Part shown: positions 2,812 to 13,850 of the stretch, one piece after another
Layout: each line of letters begins with the position of its first letter
How positions within the stretch are numbered: the first letter of the stretch is position 1
Assembly (NCBI RefSeq): GCF_000019665.1
Contig: NC_010794.1
Location: forward strand, 1,240,001 to 1,304,000
Direction of reading: 5' to 3'
DNA length: 64,000 bases
DNA from: Methylacidiphilum infernorum V4
GTDB lineage: Bacteria > Verrucomicrobiota > Verrucomicrobiia > Methylacidiphilales > Methylacidiphilaceae
Made by a program: the position numbers and the translations under genes
Notes under the pieces: generated by a model
The model's database searches: none
The model's input: only the letters and a program-made list of their open reading frames with translations
What the model was told of the DNA's origin: nothing

Positions 2812-5800
2812 TTAGAATTTCCAGGCGATGGTGCCTTGGATCCAAAATGGCAGGCCGGCAACAATGCCGCCGTAATCGTTTGTCCGATCGGGCATGGAGC
2901 CAATGGCGTAGGGAAGCCAGTAGTGTTCGTTGGTGAGGTTGTAGATCCAGAGGGAAATTTCCCACTTCGGCTGGGAATAGAAGATGCGGCCGTTAATAAG
3001 GTATTGCCAGGGGATCGCCGTGGCGTAGTTGTAGCCGAGAAACTGCGGGCTCATCACGAGGGCACTTAAGGTTACGCCAAAGCCCGATTCGGCCTGGTAG
3101 GTCACCATGGCGTTGATAACCTGCTGGGGCCAGCCGATGAAAGGATAGGTACCGGGAGGAAAGCTCAAGTTGTCGTTGAGCGGCAGGTTGGCCCGTAGGG
3201 CAAGGGCAGTGGAATAAGTCTGTGACATAGGTGGCCCGGAGGGCAAGCCGGACCAATCTTCCACACCATGGCCAAAGAAATAGCCCGTGCGCATCCACCA
3301 GTGACGATTGGGTTGATAGGTGAGGTTAGCTTCAAGGCCGGTCACGGTCGCCGGGGTAGGTGGAACATTGACAAAGTTAAAGAGGGGAATTTGCTGTGAA
3401 AAGCCGGCCAGAGAGGCATAAAGCTTGTTATCGAGAAGGCTCCACTTGAAGCCTCCCTCGAAGAGTTGTTCCTTTAAATTGAAGCTGCTTGAAGGCAACC
3501 CGCTAGGATAGACGTTAAATCCCCCGACCGCCCCTACATTGGCGACATACATCCAATCGTAGGTAAAGTAAGCGGTCCACCAGGGAACGACCTTGTAGAT
3601 GACGCTAGCATTCACCATGGGAAGCTCTTGGATGGTTTGGGCTTGGATGAAAAGCTCGGGAGGAGTTCCCGGCGGAGTTTGGCTCGAAATGAAATAGGTA
3701 GTGGCGCGAGCCCCAACCAGGATTGAGATCTTATCGGTAACCTGGATATCATGCTGGTAGAAGGGTGCAACCGTCCAGTAGTTGGAATCGGTCGTTCCGG
3801 CACTTCCATTGAGCGGCTCGAAATAGACGCCGGGCATACCCGGGATCGGCCACTCTCCGCCTCCCGGGGCCGAGGGATTACGGATCAGGGATTGGAAGAA
3901 AGCGGTCTGGGTAAAGTTCCAGCTCGTGGGATTGGTTCGGAGGATATCCCAGGCGTTTGCACTGCCAAACCATAGTTGCGACTCATAATCGAGATTGTGT
4001 TCAAACCCCCATTCGACCCCGGCGTCAATCTGGTGTTGGACCAGGAGCTTACCAAGCAGCCTGTCTTCCCAAGAAGAGATTTTATCCGATAGGTCGTTAG
4101 AACCTCCAAACCGGGTTATGAGCTCGGTACGGTTGTCTATTTGATAATCTCCCATGGCTACTTCGGTGTAGTAGGAAGCCGGAGCGACTACCGCATTCCG
4201 TCCGTAGTAGGCAAAAGTGTTGTTGCGAAGTAGCAGGCCATCTCCCAGTTGAAGCTGTTGGACCAACTGGATGAATCCCGTGTAAGCTCGACCTTCCGAT
4301 TCAGGGTTGTTGGCAACCATTCTTCGGCTAATCGGCTCAAGAGGTCCCGCATAGGTAGCAAATCCCGGGTTATTGACCGTGCCGATTTGAATTTGAGATA
4401 GAGGCAAAGAACCGGTATTGTAGAGCCCATTCTGGATAAGAGCGGTGGTTGGCCGATTCATCCACTCCATCATGGGAGTGAAGTCGTAGGTTCCAAAATC
4501 GGAGTAGAAGTTGATCGAGTAGCTTTCGGTGGGTCGAGCGCCAAGGGTGAAATAAACGTTCTCCTGGTCGTTATGGACATTGGGCTGGTAGTAGCTTCCG
4601 TTTTCAATGCCCATGTAACTGAGCCGGTAAGCTGCCTTGTGTTCTTTATCCACGGGTCCTCCTAGATCCGCTCCCCACATGTAATTTTCATACATGCCCG
4701 TGGTGTCCCATAGCTGGCCGCGAAAGCGGTCGAAATAGGGCTGCTTGGTAATGTAGTTGACCGTTCCGCCTGCCGGCTGCTCTTGTCCGAAGACGGCGTT
4801 GGCTGGACCCTCTGTAATATCCTCGGACTCGACCATGTTCCAATTAAAAGGGGTAAGTGGCATTCCCGCTTGGAGAGCGGTCAATTGGATACCATTGATG
4901 TAGGGTTGTGCAGCCATGCCGCGAACGGAAGGGGCAGCCATCATACCACCGCTATTTTCGCTGATCGAGCCAGGGATCAAGAAAGCGGTGCTCAACGGAT
5001 CGATATAGCCTTGGGCAGCCATGCCGGAGGAACGGATGAGGGTTTGACTGACCTGAGTGAGTTGCCGCGGAGTGTCCAAAACAGAAAAGTCCATGCCGTA
5101 GACCGAGGAGCTTTCTGTCGGAAGAACATCCGACGCTGGCAGAGCCGCAGCCGTCACCGAGACTTCGGGGAGCATAATTTCTGTTCCCACAACGGATGAA
5201 GACGAATCAGGCGGAACTGTGTATCCGCAGTTCAAGCAAAGGGAAAAAAGGGAAAGGATCGTGGTTGAGACTAACTGAATCTTTCCCTCTTCTCGTCGAG
5301 CTGTTGACAAGGCAAGCTTTGAGCCCTGCCATCGAGGGTCCTCATGGTCCCTGCAGATAAAAAAGAGGGCATAATCCCCTCTACTAGCCTTGCGATTTTT
5401 ATACGACAGGTTGTGCAGGCAGGAAGCTTTCTTGGCACGCCCGCCCCTACCCTCATGTTGGGAGAATGATTTAGCTGGTATCTTTAGAAATAAGGCTAAT
5501 AAAGCTAGGCTAACAACTAAGGCATAAGAAAGGGGAAGGGATGCAAAGACAAAAGTTAGGGGGACAACCCTTTTTGCCTGGTTGGTTGTCGAATGCCAAC
5601 TTCCCGAATATTCCAAGTCTGTAAGGTAACGAAAAGCTACCCCGGTATCCAAGTTTTGCCAGAATTTTTTGGATCCTTTTCTCGCCTCGTTAAACCGTAG
5701 CTCAAGACGGTCGGCTACATCTATTCCATAAGGCATGACGACCCAGGTGGGGAAAAGCCACCTATTCACGAAAGCCCGCTCTTCTGTTAACTCAAGAGAA

Positions 5801-6663
5801 CTGATCGGCTGGCTGACCGCGTAGAGTTGGCATGAAAAATCAAAAGGGATGTTAAATATATTGGACTTAATGCTTAAGGGCACCAAGGGACCCCACAAGG
5901 TGGCATACCCAAAACCCGGAAGAGGTGTTCCTACCCCAGGATGAAATTGCCCAAAGGGGCTGGATGAAATAGCCGGCGGAGTATAGTAGCCAATCCAATT
6001 CCTGCTTTGGTAAAGTCCATTATCGATAAGGTTTTGAGTCGGCCGATCTATGCCCGTATAAGGAACAAGATCATTGAAATCCAGCTCCCCATTCCAATCC
6101 AACCGGAGGGTTCCCGATGGCTTCAAGCTTAAGGCAAGATAAGCACACTGCCGGTTCAAGTAGGAACCCTCATGGTAATTATAAGGCGCATAGCCGTCCT
6201 GGCCAAAGTAAACCAACCGGTAAGCTAACTCTCCTTCCTTAATGGGGCCACCCAGATCAATGTTCCAAAAGTTCGTCCCATACATCCCAAAAGTATAAAA
6301 AGCATCTTCCCGAAAACGGTCAAAATAAGTCTGCTTGGTCAGTTCATCGAGATAGCCTCCCGAAAATTCTTGCGGTCCATAGATCACGCCCACCGGCCCC
6401 GTAACCAGCTCCGGACCATAAACTGAAGAACGAGGGAGCTCTTCTGCCGTCGCTTGCCCTTCATTCTGGGGAGAAGTCGCGCTAACAAGGACTTCCGGCA
6501 TCAAGAAGAAAGAAGAAGAATTAACTCCTTGCTCATCCGCAGCAAGCATCAACCCTATGCCTAAGGGCTTAAGAGGCCAAAAAAGGAAGAAAAAAAACTG
6601 AAGAAAATAACCAAACCCCTTCTTGAAAAAATAGAAAGCAGCTACGGGCTTTTGAATCGTCAT
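2812..6663 (-). CDS. Chimeric ORF: truncated receptor fused to a complete TonB-dependent receptor
   Basis: One uninterrupted frame of 1283 codons, far longer than the 750-900 residues usual for the family. Residues 1 to about 400 match the N-terminal half of the receptor at 6981-9515, with an 86-residue deletion of the plug after SSVYGP and a further gap near residue 300. Residues about 400-450 resemble translated spacer. From about residue 452 a complete receptor begins: a signal-like segment (LVSTTILSLFSLCLNCG), a TonB-box-like LPEVSVTA, a plug (GPANAVFGQEQPAGGTVNYITKQPYF) and a 22-strand-type barrel ending TIAWKF. The second receptor has no ATG near its signal; a TTG at 5310 would give an 832-residue product with a normal signal peptide. 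The real product may therefore be 2812-5310 rather than the fusion. Such receptors import metal chelates or cofactors across the outer membrane with TonB; the ligand is unknown. Confidence 0.8.
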   Translation of the reverse strand: MTIQKPVAAFYFFKKGFGYFLQFFFFLFWPLKPLGIGLMLAADEQGVNSSSFFLMPEVLVSATSPQNEGQATAEELPRSSVYGPELVTGPVGVIYGPQEFSGGYLDELTKQTYFDRFREDAFYTFGMYGTNFWNIDLGGPIKEGELAYRLVYFGQDGYAPYNYHEGSYLNRQCAYLALSLKPSGTLRLDWNGELDFNDLVPYTGIDRPTQNLIDNGLYQSRNWIGYYTPPAISSSPFGQFHPGVGTPLPGFGYATLWGPLVPLSIKSNIFNIPFDFSCQLYAVSQPISSLELTEERAFVNRWLFPTWVVMPYGIDVADRLELRFNEARKGSKKFWQNLDTGVAFRYLTDLEYSGSWHSTTNQAKRVVPLTFVFASLPLSYALVVSLALLALFLKIPAKSFSQHEGRGGRAKKASCLHNLSYKNRKASRGDYALFFICRDHEDPRWQGSKLALSTARREEGKIQLVSTTILSLFSLCLNCGYTVPPDSSSSVVGTEIMLPEVSVTAAALPASDVLPTESSSVYGMDFSVLDTPRQLTQVSQTLIRSSGMAAQGYIDPLSTAFLIPGSISENSGGMMAAPSVRGMAAQPYINGIQLTALQAGMPLTPFNWNMVESEDITEGPANAVFGQEQPAGGTVNYITKQPYFDRFRGQLWDTTGMYENYMWGADLGGPVDKEHKAAYRLSYMGIENGSYYQPNVHNDQENVYFTLGARPTESYSINFYSDFGTYDFTPMMEWMNRPTTALIQNGLYNTGSLPLSQIQIGTVNNPGFATYAGPLEPISRRMVANNPESEGRAYTGFIQLVQQLQLGDGLLLRNNTFAYYGRNAVVAPASYYTEVAMGDYQIDNRTELITRFGGSNDLSDKISSWEDRLLGKLLVQHQIDAGVEWGFEHNLDYESQLWFGSANAWDILRTNPTSWNFTQTAFFQSLIRNPSAPGGGEWPIPGMPGVYFEPLNGSAGTTDSNYWTVAPFYQHDIQVTDKISILVGARATTYFISSQTPPGTPPELFIQAQTIQELPMVNASVIYKVVPWWTAYFTYDWMYVANVGAVGGFNVYPSGLPSSSFNLKEQLFEGGFKWSLLDNKLYASLAGFSQQIPLFNFVNVPPTPATVTGLEANLTYQPNRHWWMRTGYFFGHGVEDWSGLPSGPPMSQTYSTALALRANLPLNDNLSFPPGTYPFIGWPQQVINAMVTYQAESGFGVTLSALVMSPQFLGYNYATAIPWQYLINGRIFYSQPKWEISLWIYNLTNEHYWLPYAIGSMPDRTNDYGGIVAGLPFWIQGTIAWKF
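5455..6663 (-). pseudogene. TonB-dependent receptor, decayed N-terminal half (part of chimeric ORF)
   Basis: This is the 5' half of the left copy of the duplicated receptor, read in frame with the receptor downstream. It keeps a signal peptide close to that of the right copy (FFKKGFGYFLQFFFFLFW) and the motif LPRSSVYGP. It lacks 86 plug residues relative to the right copy and loses homology after the segment aligned to the right copy's SGSWHPTSNQA. Bases 6413-6663 are nearly identical to 9265-9515, whereas 5455-6400 has diverged and is less GC-rich than the matching part of the right copy. Without an intact plug or the C-terminal barrel strands it cannot form a receptor on its own. Confidence 0.75.
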
Positions 6664-6872
6664 TAAAAAAAGCTTATATAAAGAAAAGGCCCCTCACTGC
6701 TAACTCTTGCTTGTTCCATTTTTGACTCCATCTTGCAGTAATAATCACCCTTAGCCACTTTTTTCTCCTTTTCCCCAAGTAAAGGAAGGCTCTTGACCGT
6801 TCCTAAAAATGGACTTATAGAGCTCTTATTCCCCGTTGGAGGAGTCCTTTTACTACGGTTTTGTGCCGAAAG
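6664..6872 (-). promoter_or_regulatory. Structured 5' leader of receptor locus, copy A
   Basis: About 209 bases before the ATG at 6663 are almost identical to the leader of the right receptor copy (9516-9723). On the minus strand nested complementary segments can pair: ACCGT (rc of 6855-6859) with ACGGT (rc of 6796-6800), GGACT (6843-6847) with AGTCC (6811-6815), and a C-rich arm with GGGG (6831-6834). Nearer the start, TTACTGC can pair with GCAGTGA. No Shine-Dalgarno sequence precedes the start codon, which follows a T-run. One change between copies, C to T in the C-rich arm, keeps a G-U pair. I do not recognise a known riboswitch; a cis-regulatory RNA is an inference. Confidence 0.45.
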
Positions 6873-7323
6873 TTCCTTTTTTGCACCTTTCAACCCTCAA
6901 CGAATTAAATAGGTTCTCTTCATAACAAGCGGGTGATGGACTGAAATCTCAAAACGATCGTTGGATAAGGGACAAGAAATTCAAAAGGAATAACGAATCA
7001 TCGCTTGCATCCAAAAAGGCATCTGGAGGGCGGCATACTCGAGGTTCGCGGTGCGCGCGGGGGTGAAACCGGGTGCTCCCGCGATCCAGTAGTGGTTGTC
7101 GGTGAAGTTGTAGAACCAGATCCGCGCCTCCCAGTGCTTGGCGGCGTAGAAGAGGCTCGCGTTCAAGGTATACCAGGCCGGCGCCCGGACGGAGTAGTCA
7201 TAGGAGAGGAATTGGCCTCCCTGCGCGATCGCCCATAAGGAGACGCCGAAGCCCGAGTCGGTCTTGTAGGTGAGCATCAGGTTGCCGTACTCCTTGGGAA
7301 AGCCGATGAAGGGATAGATGCCC
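6872..7323. repeat. Right copy of duplicated receptor 3' end and flank
   Basis: This segment is nearly identical to 2050-2500 and directly abuts the leader copy that ends at 6872, so 6872 is the junction of the tandem duplication. It carries the 3' flank and C-terminal codons of the intact receptor at 6981-9515. One extra base in the flank shifts the offset between copies from 4822 to 4823. Confidence 0.9.
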
Positions 7324-9515
7324 GGGGCGAGGGAGACGATCTGGCTGACCGGCAGGCCGTACTGGGCGGCGACGTTTGCGGGATAGGGGGTAAAGGTGGT
7401 CGGGCCGACGCCGTCGGTGTTCGTCCAGTTCTCGTACCCTTGCATGTAGTTGAATCCGAAGTTCGCCCAAAAATGGCGGTCCGGCCGATAGCTCCCCTGA
7501 AGCTGAACCCCTTGGACATCGGCGGAAACGGTCGGGGTTGTGCCTCCCGGAAGGACGAAGGCCGGGATGAATCCAGACTGGGCATAGGCCGAAAGCCCGA
7601 GAAAGAGCGTATCGCGGAGGAGAGAGAGCTTGAGGCCCGTCTCGTAGAGGGTCTGGGTCTGGTGGTAGTAGGTGCTGGTGAACTCCGGAGCGAAGGAGCC
7701 GAAGATCGATTGGGCGGTCGTCTGCCCGAAGTAGTAGGTCGCATACCAGGAAAGCCAAGGGAAGATCCGGTAGGTGGGGCTGGCGGTGACCTGCGGCAGG
7801 AGGGCACTTGTCGAGGTCGCGTCGTAGCTCGGGCCGATGAGCTGTGCCGGGGTGCCGGAGGGCGGTTGGGCGTTGACGAAGTAGGCATCGACACGGGCGC
7901 CGAGGAAGAGGCTCGCCTTTTCTCCGAAGTGGAGGATGTCCTGGACGAAGGGGGAGATCTCCCAGAAGTTGCATTGGGTCGAGGCGAAGTTGTCGACGTT
8001 GTAATACTCTCCCGGATAGCCCGGAATCGGAATGTCCGTGAGAAACGGATTAGCGTAGGCGGGGCTGATTGCCAGCGAGTAGGGGACGATCGTGGAGGCG
8101 GAGGCGGGCGTCAATGGCTTGCTCATATCGGCCTGGTTGCTCGTCGGATGCCAGCTCCCCGAATACTCCTCGTCGCTCAGGAAGCGGAAGGCGAGGCCGC
8201 TATCGATGCTCTGCCAAAAGCTTTTTCTCTGCTGCTCCGGCTCCCAGCGGATTTCGAGCCGATCGGCGACATCGACCCCGTAGGGCAGGACGACCCAGGT
8301 CGGATCCGGGATCGGCTGGGCGGCATTCGCCTGGAAATACTCGAAGAGCGTGTTGTTGACGAGGGTGAGCTCGTCGCTCAGTCGGATCGTGGCGATCGCC
8401 TGGCTCACCGCGTAGAGCTGATGCGAGGAGTCGAGCGGGGTATTGAAGAGGTTGGCCCGGCCGCTGATCGGGACTTGGGACCCCCAGTCGATCGCGTATC
8501 CGGAGCCCGGCGGCGGCGTCCCTTGACCCGGGTGGAACTGGCCGAAGGGCTGTGCCGCGGTAGCCGGTGGGGTGTAATACCCGATCCAGGAGCCGGTCTG
8601 GTAGAGTCCGGAGTCGATGAGGGATTGAGTCGGCCGGTTGATTCCGGCGTAGGGAAGAAAGGAGTTCTGATCAAGCTCCGCATTCCAGTCGACTCGGATC
8701 TCCTCCGCGGGCTTCCAAGAAAGGGCGAGATAGGCGCACTCCCGGTTCAAGTAGGAGCCATCATAGTAGTTGTAGGGCGCGTAGCCCTCCTGCCCGAAGT
8801 AGTCGAGCCGGTAGGCGAGCTTCTTCTCCTTGTCGATCGGGCCGCCTATGTCGATGTTCCACATGTTGGTGTCGTACATCCCCAAGGTGTAATAGGCGGT
8901 GCCCCGGAAGCGGTCGAAGAAGGGCTGCTTGGTCACCTCGTCAACATATCCGCCCGCGAACTCTTGTGGCCCATAGACAATGCTCACCGGTCCCGTGACG
9001 ACATCGAGCGAGTCGTCCGCGTTGATATTGGGAAGGGGTCCCCAGTTCCCCCCACTTGAAAACCCCACCAATTGCCCATTGCGAAAAACCGTGGCCGGAA
9101 GTCCACGCATCACCGGTTCACTGACCACGTTTCCCGTGGCTTCGGTGGGGTTGATGGAAGGACTGAAAGCCACCAAGTCGTTAACCGTTTGGGTCATTAC
9201 CGTGTGGAGCTGTTCCTGGGAAATCAAAGTCACATCTCTGGGAATGTCTAACAAGGACAGATCCGGACCATAAACTGAAGAACGGGGGAGCTCTTCTGCC
9301 GTCGCTTGCCCTTCATTCTGGGGAGAAGTCGCGGTAACAAGGACTTCCGGCATCAAGGAGAAAGAAGAAGAATCAACTCCTTGCTCATCCGCAGCAAGCA
9401 TCAACCCTATGCCTAAGGGCTTAAGAGGCCAAAAAAGGAAGAAAAAAAACTGAAGAAAATAACCAAAACCCTTCTTGAAAAATTGGGAAGCAGCTACGGG
9501 ATTTTGAAGCGGCAT
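6981..9515 (-). CDS. TonB-dependent outer membrane receptor
   Basis: An 844-residue receptor of normal length. Residues 1 to about 41 form a long signal peptide with a Phe-rich core. A TonB-box-like MPEVLVTATS follows near residue 55, then the plug domain (IPRDVTLISQEQL, VMRGLPATVFRNG, VVTGPVSIVYGPQEFAGG) to about residue 210. The rest is beta barrel ending in MQAMIRYSF. It would take up a chelated nutrient using proton motive force through TonB-ExbBD, which is not encoded nearby. The central part, roughly 7005-9010, is strikingly GC-rich, while the first roughly 170 codons and the leader match local composition, suggesting a recombinant gene. The start has no Shine-Dalgarno and follows a structured leader. 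The ligand cannot be predicted. Confidence 0.9.
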   Translation of the reverse strand: MPLQNPVAASQFFKKGFGYFLQFFFFLFWPLKPLGIGLMLAADEQGVDSSSFSLMPEVLVTATSPQNEGQATAEELPRSSVYGPDLSLLDIPRDVTLISQEQLHTVMTQTVNDLVAFSPSINPTEATGNVVSEPVMRGLPATVFRNGQLVGFSSGGNWGPLPNINADDSLDVVTGPVSIVYGPQEFAGGYVDEVTKQPFFDRFRGTAYYTLGMYDTNMWNIDIGGPIDKEKKLAYRLDYFGQEGYAPYNYYDGSYLNRECAYLALSWKPAEEIRVDWNAELDQNSFLPYAGINRPTQSLIDSGLYQTGSWIGYYTPPATAAQPFGQFHPGQGTPPPGSGYAIDWGSQVPISGRANLFNTPLDSSHQLYAVSQAIATIRLSDELTLVNNTLFEYFQANAAQPIPDPTWVVLPYGVDVADRLEIRWEPEQQRKSFWQSIDSGLAFRFLSDEEYSGSWHPTSNQADMSKPLTPASASTIVPYSLAISPAYANPFLTDIPIPGYPGEYYNVDNFASTQCNFWEISPFVQDILHFGEKASLFLGARVDAYFVNAQPPSGTPAQLIGPSYDATSTSALLPQVTASPTYRIFPWLSWYATYYFGQTTAQSIFGSFAPEFTSTYYHQTQTLYETGLKLSLLRDTLFLGLSAYAQSGFIPAFVLPGGTTPTVSADVQGVQLQGSYRPDRHFWANFGFNYMQGYENWTNTDGVGPTTFTPYPANVAAQYGLPVSQIVSLAPGIYPFIGFPKEYGNLMLTYKTDSGFGVSLWAIAQGGQFLSYDYSVRAPAWYTLNASLFYAAKHWEARIWFYNFTDNHYWIAGAPGFTPARTANLEYAALQMPFWMQAMIRYSF

Positions 9516-9723
9516 TAAAAAAGCTTATATAAAGAAAAGGCCCCTCACTGCTAACTCTTGCTTGCTCCATTTTTGACTCCATCTTGCAGTAATAACCACC
9601 CTTAGCCACTTTTTTCTCCTTTTCCCCAAGTAAAGGAAGGCTCTTGACCGTTCCTAAAAATGGACTTATAGAGCACTTATTCCCCGTTGGGGGAGTCCTT
9701 TTACTACGGTTTTGTGCCGAAAG
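9516..9723 (-). promoter_or_regulatory. Structured 5' leader of receptor locus, copy B
   Basis: The counterpart of the leader at 6664-6872, differing at only a handful of positions. On the minus strand the possible nested stems are 9706-9710 with 9647-9651, 9694-9698 with 9662-9666, and 9689-9693 with 9682-9685. A further stem TTACTGC/GCAGTGA lies closer to the gene. One base fewer in the A-run before the start codon than in copy A shifts the overlapping upstream reading frame, which argues that the element acts as RNA rather than as a leader peptide. Similarity stops at 9723, the right end of the duplicated unit. Confidence 0.45.
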
Positions 9724-9923
9724 ATACATGGATTATCAAGGTTGTTTATCTTGAGATCGGCCAGCGTAGCCTTGAGATGCTTGCTACCCCGGATCCTTTG
9801 CCGAAACTTTCGCAATCCTAAATGAAAATTTTACTTATCAACCCATTAAAAAAATTTTTCTTTTCAGCTGTTTAATTTTAAAAGCTATGTCAGTATAAAT
9901 ACAGGACAACAACCCTGATCCTC

Positions 9924-10174: not shown

Positions 10175-10687
10175 TTATCTATAAACAATAACGGGTAGAG
10201 GTTTGCGAATCGGCTTTCCGTTATAATAACCTATCGTGCCAAAAGACATATTGCCTACATTTTGGATAAAAAGACGATGCTGCCCGACCCTGCCCATTTC
10301 GATATTCCCGATCTTTTGAATGAAGATCGATTCGTTACCTACATGGCCAATAAGCATATTCCCTACTCTTTGCGTAAAAAGGGGTCTATTGCCGAAATGC
10401 CCTATAGTGATGTTTCCGATTCGATTCTCAAAAAAAGGCTTCCCACCCACATTCCCAATAGTCATGTTCCCAATGGATTGAGAAAAAAAGGGCTTGCCCC
10501 CGATATTTCCTATGGATGTATTGCCGATTCTTTGAGAAAAAAACGAACGGTTCGCTGTCTGTCCATAATAACTTCTTTTCAAGCCGAAACTTTGCCGATT
10601 GCCTCCTGCTGAAGTAGTATATCCATCAAAAGCAAGAGAACTCAATATAAAACAAAACGTAAAACAAGAAGACAAAACCGTTTTCAT
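10175..10687 (-). CDS. Secreted protein with six ~18-residue IGN repeats
   Basis: A 170-residue protein with a signal peptide (MKTVLSSCFTFCFILSSLAF). After a short Gly/Ser/Tyr-rich linker come six tandem repeats at residues about 49-159. The consensus is FFxQxIGNxxIGxxGxxP with a strict 18-residue period, except for a 3-residue insertion in the last one. Each repeat reads as two nine-residue half units ending in Gly-Asn or Gly-Gly turns, as expected of a small beta-solenoid or stacked hairpins. The C-terminus is basic and proline-rich (KPIRKPLPVIVYR). I do not recognise a named family or enzyme residues; a structural or surface-binding role in the cell envelope is an inference. It stands alone, with gene-free DNA on both sides. 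Confidence 0.75.
   Translation of the reverse strand: MKTVLSSCFTFCFILSSLAFDGYTTSAGGNRQSFGLKRSYYGQTANRSFFSQRIGNTSIGNIGGKPFFSQSIGNMTIGNVGGKPFFENRIGNITIGHFGNRPLFTQRVGNMLIGHVGNESIFIQKIGNIEMGRVGQHRLFIQNVGNMSFGTIGYYNGKPIRKPLPVIVYR
10211..10543 (-). repeat. Array of six 54-bp coding repeats
   Basis: The DNA that encodes the six 18-residue units of the secreted repeat protein. Units are divergent at nucleotide level but keep the codons for IGN and the following Gly. The last unit is 63 bases long. Divergence between units suggests old duplication kept by selection rather than a recent slippage array. Confidence 0.7.
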
Positions 10688-11430
10688 ATCTAAGCTTATC
10701 TTTTTAATAAAATCTCGGGTAAAATTAAATGTTAAAAATTCTCTTGTACTCCAAAAAAAATAGAAAGACTAGATCCTCCCATTTTAATCTTTGCCCATAA
10801 TAGGTAGGAACTGCAGACTTGATAGTAGACTCATAGAAAAATGGAAGAGGATTATGAGCTTCCAAGAAGGTATCTTGTATCTGTTATTCATTACCAGGGA
10901 AATAAACATATTATTCGAACAGGATTAATAGGAAGAAATTCGGGGAGATAAAAAGGAGAAATATCATTTCATCCCCCTCTTTTTAATTTCTAAAGAAATG
11001 GCTTTAAAAACTTTTTATTCTTCAAAATAATCCGGTAATTAAGCTTATGAGAAGTTCTTATTTAAGAACATTTAAGATCAAAACCCGGAAACTCCCTTTA
11101 TTCGATATAAAACGTAGTTCAAAAATGAGGGATAAGTTAGCTGAGCGGGAAAGAAAAAAAAGGAACTGAATTTTAAAAATTGGAAATATTAAAATTTTTA
11201 CGATTTGTAAGTCTAACCTTGCCTCGTTTTTCTCAGCATCTAACAGTGAATTTTTTTTCAGTTCATCATACCTAACCCCTTTTGTCTTCTAGATGTCGAA
11301 TCGGTTTTTACTTCAAGCGAACAAATCTTGGTAAAAAAAAAATAGTTGATAAGAAAAGAGCAAAAAAGAGCTAAAAACGAAGCATTCCAAAGTTAGCAAG
11401 GAGGAATGGAAAGTCTATACTCCCCTTCTG
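10688..11430. other. AT-rich intergenic region without a clear gene
   Basis: About 740 bases of low-GC spacer between the repeat protein and the broken receptor. The best frame is 10841-10951 on the plus strand, 36 codons starting MEEDYELPRRYLVSVI. It has no ribosome site and no recognisable family, so I do not call it a gene. AAGGAGG occurs at 11399-11405, about 25 bases ahead of the receptor start at 11431, too far for normal spacing. No transposon ends or long inverted repeats were seen. Confidence 0.4.
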
Positions 11431-13850
11431 ATGAAAAAAAATTTTTTCTTTTCCTCAAATTCGATTTTCTCTTTTGGTTTATTTATTTTTATCTTTTCGA
11501 ACCCCTGGATTTTATTGCATGGCCTAAAAGCTGAACCCTTGTCTTCGGATTCCCTGCCCGCATCAGCCCTTCCCGAAGTCGTAGTCCAAGCTACAGCCGA
11601 ACAATCCGTCCTCCCTACAGAGCGACCCCTTTCTTCTGTTTACAACAGTCCTTTTAACATCATGGACATCCCCAGGTCCGTTACACCCATCAACAAAATT
11701 CTGATGGATTCAGCAGGTATTGGCTCTCAAGGTTGGCCTGATCCGCTGAGTATCACGATGGCCAGCCCCGCTGCCCAATTCGATGCTTCAGAACTTTACG
11801 AAATGTCCTCGCTATTATTAGGGGAAAACCTGGCCTTACCTTCATTAACGGCATTGAACAAAATGTCAACAATGACGGTTTTTTCAACCCCCCATGGAAC
11901 TTTAACATGGTAGAAAATTTTGACCTAGTCGAAGGGCCCCCTGGTGCGGTGTTTGGTGCAACCCAGCCCTCCAACGGATATGTCAATTATATTACCAAGC
12001 AACCCCATTTCGACAAATTCAGAGGTTATGTGTGGGATACTACCGGCATGTATGAAAACTACATGTGGGGGGCTGACATAGGAGGGCCAGTGGATAAAGA
12101 ACACAAGGTAGCTTACCGGTTCAGTTACATGGGCATTGAAAACGGAAGCTACTACCAGTACGTGCACAACAACCAGCAAAATTTTTACTTCGCCCTTGGA
12201 TACAATCCGTCGGAAAATTACCAGGCGGATCTTTATTTTGATTATGGGAACGCCGATTACACCCCGATAGAGGTACTCCTCGATAGACCAACCCAGTCTC
12301 TAATCGATAATGGCCTTTATATTACGGGATTTTTGCCCCCTTCCGCAGTGACCGCAGGAACTGAAAACAATCCCCCCGCCAACACTTACCTGAATGGAGA
12401 ACTGCCCATAAGCCGCCGAGCCACGGTAAAATATCCTGGAGACATCGGCCAAGCCAATTTTGCCATGACCCAACTGATTCAAAGAATACATGTGAATGAC
12501 AACCTGGAGATCGTCAATAACACCTTTTTCTGGTACCAAGATCAAACGGCTATCCGTTTTGAAACCTACGAAGCTAACGTTTTTAAAGGAGATTACGAAA
12601 TTGACAACCGAACCGAGGCCAGGACCCATTTCGATACAGATTTGGGAAGCGGTCATAACCTCCTTAACATAAAACACTTTATAGATTCGGGTTTTGAATT
12701 TCGTTTTCAACGTACCCTCGATTACCAATCCGAAGTCTATCTTGGCAACAGCTGGGATGCGATCACCGAAAACCCTCAACTCTACAACTTTCTTTTGTCG
12801 AACAACTTCGGATCCTTTGGGCTCTATCCCATTCCGGGCTCTCCAGCAGGGGGCTATTTCATTCCCCTAAATGACGAGACCAACCAAACCCAATTTTTTA
12901 GGCTTTCCCCATTTTACCAGCACCAAATGAATTTTTCTGACAAGATCATCCTCTTTGTTGGAACGAGAATGGACGGTTATTTTGTCCATTCACAAACCCC
13001 TCCCGGAACCCCAGGCTTTTTATTCCAATCTCTCAATACAACCCAACTCAACCCTCTTGTCAATGCGGCCATAACATACAGACCGGCCAGATTTGTAAGC
13101 CTCTATTTCAATTACAACTGGCAATACACAACCAATGCCTCGGGTGGAGGAGGATACTCTCCTCTCTTTCCCCCCACCGCTTTTCATCTTCTCAACCAGC
13201 TTATCGAAGGGGGAGTTAAATGGAATCTCCTTAATGAAAAGCTTTACATTTCCTTGGCAGGATTTTCCGAAGACACCTATTTAGGAAATATCGAGTTTCC
13301 TGCTACTCCCGCTTCTTTTAAAGGCTTGGAAGCTAACCTCACCTTTCAGCCGGACAAACATTTCTGGATAAGGCTTGGGTACCTTTTGGAGCAAGGAATC
13401 GAAGATTGGAGCGGATTCCCTGAAGGCCCGGAAATGGCGCAAACTTATTCTACCCAATTTGCCAAGCAGTATGGACTTCCCTTGAATAACGACTAAGCTT
13501 TTCCTCCCGGCAAGTACTCCCTGATCGGTTGGCCCGATCAAGTTTTTAGCGGGATGCTTACTTATAAATTCGACTTGGGCTTGGGACTGACCCTCGGGGC
13601 AATCGTTCTATCCGATCAGTATCTTGGTTACGATTACCGGACCAGGATTCCTCTCCAATTCGTTTTGAACAGCTCCCTTTTTTATTTCTCTCCCAAGTGG
13701 GAGATGCGGATTAACCTCTTTAATTTTACAAATGAAAAATATTGGCTTCCGGCAGGAGTAGGCATGTCACCCACGAGAGAATTGGACTATACTTCCATAG
13801 TCGCCGGCTATCCTTTTTGGGCACAGGGAACCGTTTCCTATAAGTTTTAA
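11431..13850 (+). pseudogene. TonB-dependent receptor, broken by a frameshift and a stop codon
   Basis: The parts add up to one receptor closely related to the one at 2812-5310. A signal peptide and a TonB-box-like ALPEVVVQATAE lie in frame 1. The plug continues in another frame from about 11790 (VLAIIRGKPGLTFINGIEQ), so a single-base-type frameshift lies at about 11770-11815. The barrel then runs without break to an in-frame TAA at 13494-13496, after LPLNND. The reading frame continues directly with AFPPGKYSLIGWP and ends in the proper barrel strand GTVSYKF at 13850. Two independent lesions make a sequencing error less likely and indicate a decaying gene. Shared motifs with its relative include WDTTGMYENYMWGAD and MGIENGSYY. 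Confidence 0.88.

Follow-up and report, generated by a model that had tools for sequence, protein, structure and literature searches.

Putative AraC/XylS-type operator and promoter upstream of TonB-dependent receptor genes in Methylacidiphilum infernorum and its relatives

Among the AraC-type transcription factors, PchR, YbtA and their relatives are regulators of siderophore receptors. The architecture of AraC/XylS-type operators has been described for XylS, whose site was written as TGCA-N6-GGNTA-N6-TGCA-N6-GGNTA (PMC4514859), with the second XylS site sharing two bases with the -35 box (PMC4225500) and with 6 bp between box A (TGCA) and box B (GGTA) (PMC5481539). With regard to translation starts, a TANNNT hexamer located approximately 12 bp before the start was presented as the mark of leaderless genes (PMC3160421).

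Here, we analyzed a window of 64,000 nucleotides from M. infernorum V4 (NC_010794.1, positions 1,240,001 to 1,304,000), to which all positions given below refer unless another contig is named. Two near-identical regions of this window, located in front of receptor genes, had been proposed to form nested stems and to represent an undescribed cis-regulatory RNA (hereafter the original prediction). On the basis of sequence comparisons, it is quite probable that the 209-nt region concerned is instead a promoter with an AraC/XylS-type operator for TonB-dependent receptors. The features are listed in Table 1.

Examination of the two leaders (6666-6872 and 9517-9723) confirmed that they are nearly identical (98% over 207 nt) and that both lie upstream of minus-strand TonB-dependent receptor ORFs. 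An identity of 95-98% spans the first receptor codons as well as the leader and falls to ∼71% inside the genes. At 6872/9723 the identity is lost abruptly (18% across the next 60 nt), most likely because a tandem-duplication breakpoint lies there: the sequence directly past 6872 matches that from 2050 onward, which is the 3′ flank of the other copy, and positions 2050, 6872 and 9723 look like the breakpoints of such an event. Since the 5′ end of the 'leader' coincides with a breakpoint, its near-identity is silent on RNA selection; it is due to duplication and is no evidence of constraint on an RNA. The case shows that tandem duplication is able to mimic a conserved RNA leader. When the whole leader was used as a DNA query, it was present solely in M. 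infernorum's own genome, the short box described below being under the reach of this search, and the exact leader pattern had no matches in the genome contigs. The homopolymer just before the starts at 9515 and 6663 differs in length (six versus seven T), so that a short upstream ORF changes its reading frame from one copy to the other. This ORF begins with GTG behind an AAGGAG-like sequence, runs through the leader and meets the receptor start of copy B as TAATG, but is out of frame in copy A. It was dropped as it spans both the box and the -10 element.

A shared string first became visible when the upstream regions of receptor A orthologues were compared. The conserved element is a stretch of 38-39 bp of DNA with two direct half-sites, nGCA-N6-nGYYA and nGCA-N6-nGNTAGC, which lie 21 or 22 bp apart; in the 22 instances aligned (copy B set aside), the spacer between them was 7 bp in 11 and 6 bp in 11. 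A pattern taken from the first leaders was found in 10 of the 13 genomes of the family, with about one site each and mostly before receptor A orthologues, compared with 1 match in total for the reversed-pattern control. We also scanned 103 receptor upstream regions (three from the window and 100 others), 13 of which contained the element with at most three mismatches; the opposite strand gave none and the reversed sequence two. With a stringent two-half-site pattern, 17 matches were obtained in the 13 family genomes, each in front of a receptor gene (for one of them, the contig ends soon after the start of the gene), and the reversed control gave 1; as the motif was found by eye and its instances are related by descent, these counts are not independent. 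Two genomes (G003 and G005) had no stringent match, and a variant was found in G003 when mismatches were allowed. Matches of relaxed patterns next to non-receptor genes (L081, L083, L097, L107 and others) were treated as chance; the L107 match adjoins a DUF6607-like gene, but the two are oppositely oriented. The idea of an undescribed cis-regulatory element that recurs before receptors in related genomes was well founded; it is the RNA nature of this element that is very unlikely to hold.

It could also be argued that there is no regulatory element at all, and that recent duplication together with leftover homology of receptor upstream regions produced the similarity. For the leaders within the window, duplication is indeed the source of identity. 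However, the box is common to two receptor clades whose proteins are 35-38% identical, and to the two genera Methylacidiphilum and Methylacidimicrobium, whereas the flanking DNA could not be aligned; this makes it extremely improbable that there is no regulatory element.

Table 1. Features of the receptor cluster in the window, and genes associated with box matches outside the family
Feature	Position	Strand	Remarks
Box A, distal half-site TGCAAGATGGAGTCA (nGCA-N6-nGYYA)	9574..9588	-	Alignment includes 21 further instances from the family
Box A, proximal half-site AGCAAGCAAGAGTTAGC (nGCA-N6-nGNTAGC)	9550..9566	-	Instance alignment and pattern search
Box B, duplicate of box A	6699..6737	-	Among its substitutions, near-invariant GCAA of proximal half-site to ACAA
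Box C, before next receptor	11359..11397	+	Pattern match
Decayed box-like remnant	5371..5402	-	Before second receptor inside ORF B; compared by eye
-10-like TATAAG, copy A	9524..9529	-	20 nt after box, 14 nt before ATG
-10-like TATAAG, copy B	6673..6678	-	Upstream of ORF B
-10-like TATACT of box C	11416..11421	+	TANNNT scan
Receptor A ORF	6981..9515	-	844 aa, Plug domain; the cluster's only intact boxed receptor
Chimeric ORF B	2812..6663	-	Decayed receptor without plug region, fused in frame to second receptor
Receptor C	11431..13847	+	Frameshift near 11.8-11.9 kb and in-frame stop
Duplicated block	6406..6872	.	Twin at 9258-9723; 95-98% identical; breakpoint 6872 is the 'leader' end
Three nested stems, copy A	9647..9710	-	ACCGT/ACGGT, GGACT/AGTCC, C-rich/GGGG; not conserved
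Same three nested stems, copy B	6796..6859	-	ACCGT/ACGGT, GGACT/AGTCC, C-rich/GGGG
Target gene at L316			TonB siderophore-type receptor (Pfam or NCBIfam)
Target genes at L315			EfeO-like protein (weak, 27 bits), then Ftr1/EfeU-type permease (Pfam or NCBIfam)
Target gene at L313			OprB porin (Pfam or NCBIfam); two more alike by eye
Target gene at L311			DUF6607 protein with divergent AraC gene (Pfam or NCBIfam)
L312			AraC gene directly upstream of box; MauG-like di-haem gene further on

Downstream of the box, a TANNNT hexamer was present at a distance of 17-21 nt in 21 of the 22 instances (exactly 20 nt in 16 of them), whereas 2000 trials with shuffled downstream sequence averaged 2.6 instances and never exceeded 7. 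The sole miss is receptor A's own TATAAG, which occupies the same slot and agrees with TATAAT at five of six letters. The -35 slot, into which the end of the proximal half-site extends, matched TTGACA at 0-4 of 6 positions (21 instances). A generic sigma-70 scan found nothing near the receptor starts, as expected because there is no -35 element. In 12 of the 22 family instances, an ATG follows 33-35 nt after the box; those with the ATG elsewhere would have 5′-UTRs of some length. As stated in the original prediction, the receptor ATG has no Shine-Dalgarno sequence, which could be explained because transcription would start almost at the ATG and give a leaderless mRNA. Judging from this geometry, the 5′ end of the receptor A mRNA is probably the ATG itself or a position just ahead of it, ∼130 bp or more downstream of the stems, and such a start is what the original prediction had named as evidence against itself.

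We then consider the proposal of a structured, riboswitch-like RNA leader, formed either by the three nested stems plus a 7-bp stem nearer the start or by a GYYAA/NTAGC hairpin inside the conserved box. The stem sequences named do exist, the conserved box lies less than 80 nt from the start in many instances, and some members allow a GYUAA/UUAGC hairpin to be drawn. However, three nested stems of like size also appeared in 151 of 300 dinucleotide shuffles, the whole leaders folded slightly worse than shuffles (z of +1.16 and +1.02), and the minimum-energy folds differed between the two near-identical copies. The region 9635-9780, which reaches 57 nt past the leader and belongs to copy A only, had a slightly better fold than its shuffles (z -1.51), 13 of 200 of which were equally good. 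The nested stems are therefore at chance level, and they are not kept in relatives. In copy A they would lie ∼130 to 195 bp upstream of the predicted transcription start, and the 7-bp stem (9545-9592) consists of bases from the box and its edges. The change in the C-rich arm that keeps a G-U pair, pointed out in the original prediction, amounts to one substitution between duplicate copies.

The comparative checks that had been suggested gave a similar picture. No Rfam family matched the leaders at the gathering threshold, and one chance snoRNA match (E 2.6) appeared at relaxed E. A covariance model built from the leader pair and run against the 13 family genomes found the copies themselves; on the orthologous promoters of G001 and G004 its matches were weak (E 0.13 and 0.16) and restricted to box columns, with the stems absent, and three further weak matches had E values from 0.31 to 0.84. 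When pairs of the putative hairpin inside the box were counted in 21 of the 22 instances (G011_C was omitted, its distal site being out of register), no pair had changed on both sides and one was broken in 9 of 21 sequences. Moreover, the -10-like hexamer sits between the box and the ATG. The RNA leader was rejected on the basis of the Rfam search, the folds of shuffled sequences, the chance test of nested stems, the covariance model and the pair counts, none of which supported it, and it is very unlikely that the element before the receptors is an RNA; what is conserved is a DNA direct repeat with a -10-like hexamer.

A clear Plug-domain match was obtained for receptor A, whereas that of ORF B was just below the cut-off; the best named relatives of the receptors were of FoxA/FhuA type, far below cut-off. 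Between 6997 and 9221, the DNA of receptor A is 93% identical to that of G007, a member of the GC-rich sister genus Methylacidimicrobium (g3), and has ∼62% GC compared with 40-48% in its surroundings. A Methylacidimicrobium-like donor probably supplied the barrel, which was then joined to an AT-rich 5′ end and a promoter of native origin, so that a receptor appears to be replaceable by an imported one while the native promoter stays. ORF B is open over 1283 aa and combines an N-terminal piece of a decayed receptor with a nearly full second receptor whose own box has decayed. The promoter box of receptor C looks intact despite the frameshift and stop; this gene may have become a pseudogene recently, or its lesions may be a sequencing artefact. 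A 170-aa protein composed of short IGNxxGKPFF-like repeats is encoded at 10175-10687 (minus strand) and had no Pfam match.

To find a candidate activator, AraC-family genes were identified by PF12833. The M. infernorum genome (G000) contains exactly one (G000 C1:725808-726764), and the protein it encodes is likely to be the activator at this locus. An AraC gene of this type (type a) occurred in 11 of the 12 family genomes that carry the box, but not in the box-free G005; the remaining box-bearing genome, G012, is 83% complete. The G000 gene does not adjoin a receptor. In g1, the gene adjoining this AraC gene codes for a methyltransferase that is 45% identical to the one encoded directly upstream of receptor A in G007. 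At the order level, a full-length AraC relative (E below 1e-60) occurred in all 5 genomes with box matches and in 6 of 20 others queried, for which the hypergeometric chance is ∼0.009 if kinship is ignored. These links between AraC and the box are suggestive, not proof. A GCCPC cysteine cluster follows the second helix-turn-helix in an AraC-family protein (L227:5309-6265, plus strand) and is found in all 11 type-a members of the family; it is a possible metal or redox site.

In the mechanism we propose, a dimeric AraC-family activator would bind the two direct repeats on one helix face of a two-half-site operator located ∼35-73 bp before the start codon. Its proximal half-site would cover the missing -35 element, and the activator would recruit RNA polymerase to the -10-like hexamer, such that transcription would begin at the ATG or a few bases from it and yield a leaderless mRNA. 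The targets would be TonB-dependent receptors of two related clades, with iron or a metal chelate as the probable signal.

Alternatively, the activator that recognizes the direct repeat may not belong to the AraC family; an OmpR-type response regulator and an unusual sigma factor are examples. Direct repeats spaced by two helical turns are bound by many activators, the AraC assignment relies on motif resemblance and co-occurrence, and a response-regulator gene, by eye of OmpR type, precedes the AraC gene in g1. On the other hand, PhoB-type sites are 11-bp repeats, whereas the half-site contents and the 21-bp period found here fit XylS, and two distant genomes have AraC genes next to the box. 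We regard a non-AraC activator as unlikely, and an AraC-family protein as the better candidate.

The search was extended to 384 genomes of the class. Outside the family, 20 pattern matches were obtained against 30 for the reversed-pattern control, so the count alone shows nothing, and only the start-codon spacing and the context single out some of the matches. An ATG lay 32-35 nt downstream in 9 of the 20 (compared with 1.1 on average and at most 4 across 64 other offset windows), with the reservation that this window was widened post hoc from 33-35 nt, which gives 6 of 20. Two of the 20 matches adjoin an AraC gene. When 49 AraC loci were searched for boxes with a more stringent distal site, none was found; the boxes of G182 and G378 have a distal site that this pattern disallows. 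DUF6607-type proteins lie behind the same box in distant Verrucomicrobiae (L311:2341-3276, minus strand, and, by eye, L278). At L280/L317 the box has no clear target gene, and feoB-like and feoA-like frames nearby point in the wrong direction (by eye). Because of the target genes of the box in other Verrucomicrobiota (Table 1), we lean to iron or a metal chelate as the signal. A bolder and rather doubtful extension would be an ancient metal-uptake regulon of the whole class Verrucomicrobiae, in which one AraC-family activator, acting through XylS-like operators, would control leaderless targets (TonB receptors, EfeO/Ftr1-like iron uptake, OprB porins and DUF6607 proteins), with the barrel swapped for one of the sister genus under a retained operator at the present locus.

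Our results name a concrete putative operator, a -10-like element and a candidate activator for the metal-chelate-type receptors of acidophilic verrucomicrobial methanotrophs. A literature search on AraC and TonB-dependent regulons of Verrucomicrobia gave no prior account, as judged by titles and abstract openings. The promoter and operator appear to be a further case of the known AraC/XylS-type layout, and may belong to a wider regulon. The locus resembles the PchR and YbtA systems in that an AraC-family protein, here a candidate, would activate TonB-dependent receptor genes, which is a likeness of target type; no genes for siderophore synthesis were noticed beside the boxes examined. As in the published leaderless genes (PMC3160421), many instances have a TANNNT-like hexamer ahead of the ATG, here at ∼14 bp; the difference is that here it is combined with an activator box, and the start is predicted from sequence. 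The layout resembles that of the XylS-dependent Pm promoter: both have two direct GCA/GNTA-like half-sites with parts 6-7 bp apart and a period of 21 or 22 bp, and in both the proximal site abuts or overlaps the -35 slot with the -10 downstream. In contrast with Pm, the distal box here is GYYA instead of GGNTA and the proximal site extends to TAGC, and the presumed targets are TonB receptor genes, predicted to be often leaderless and in a different phylum, rather than a catabolic operon.
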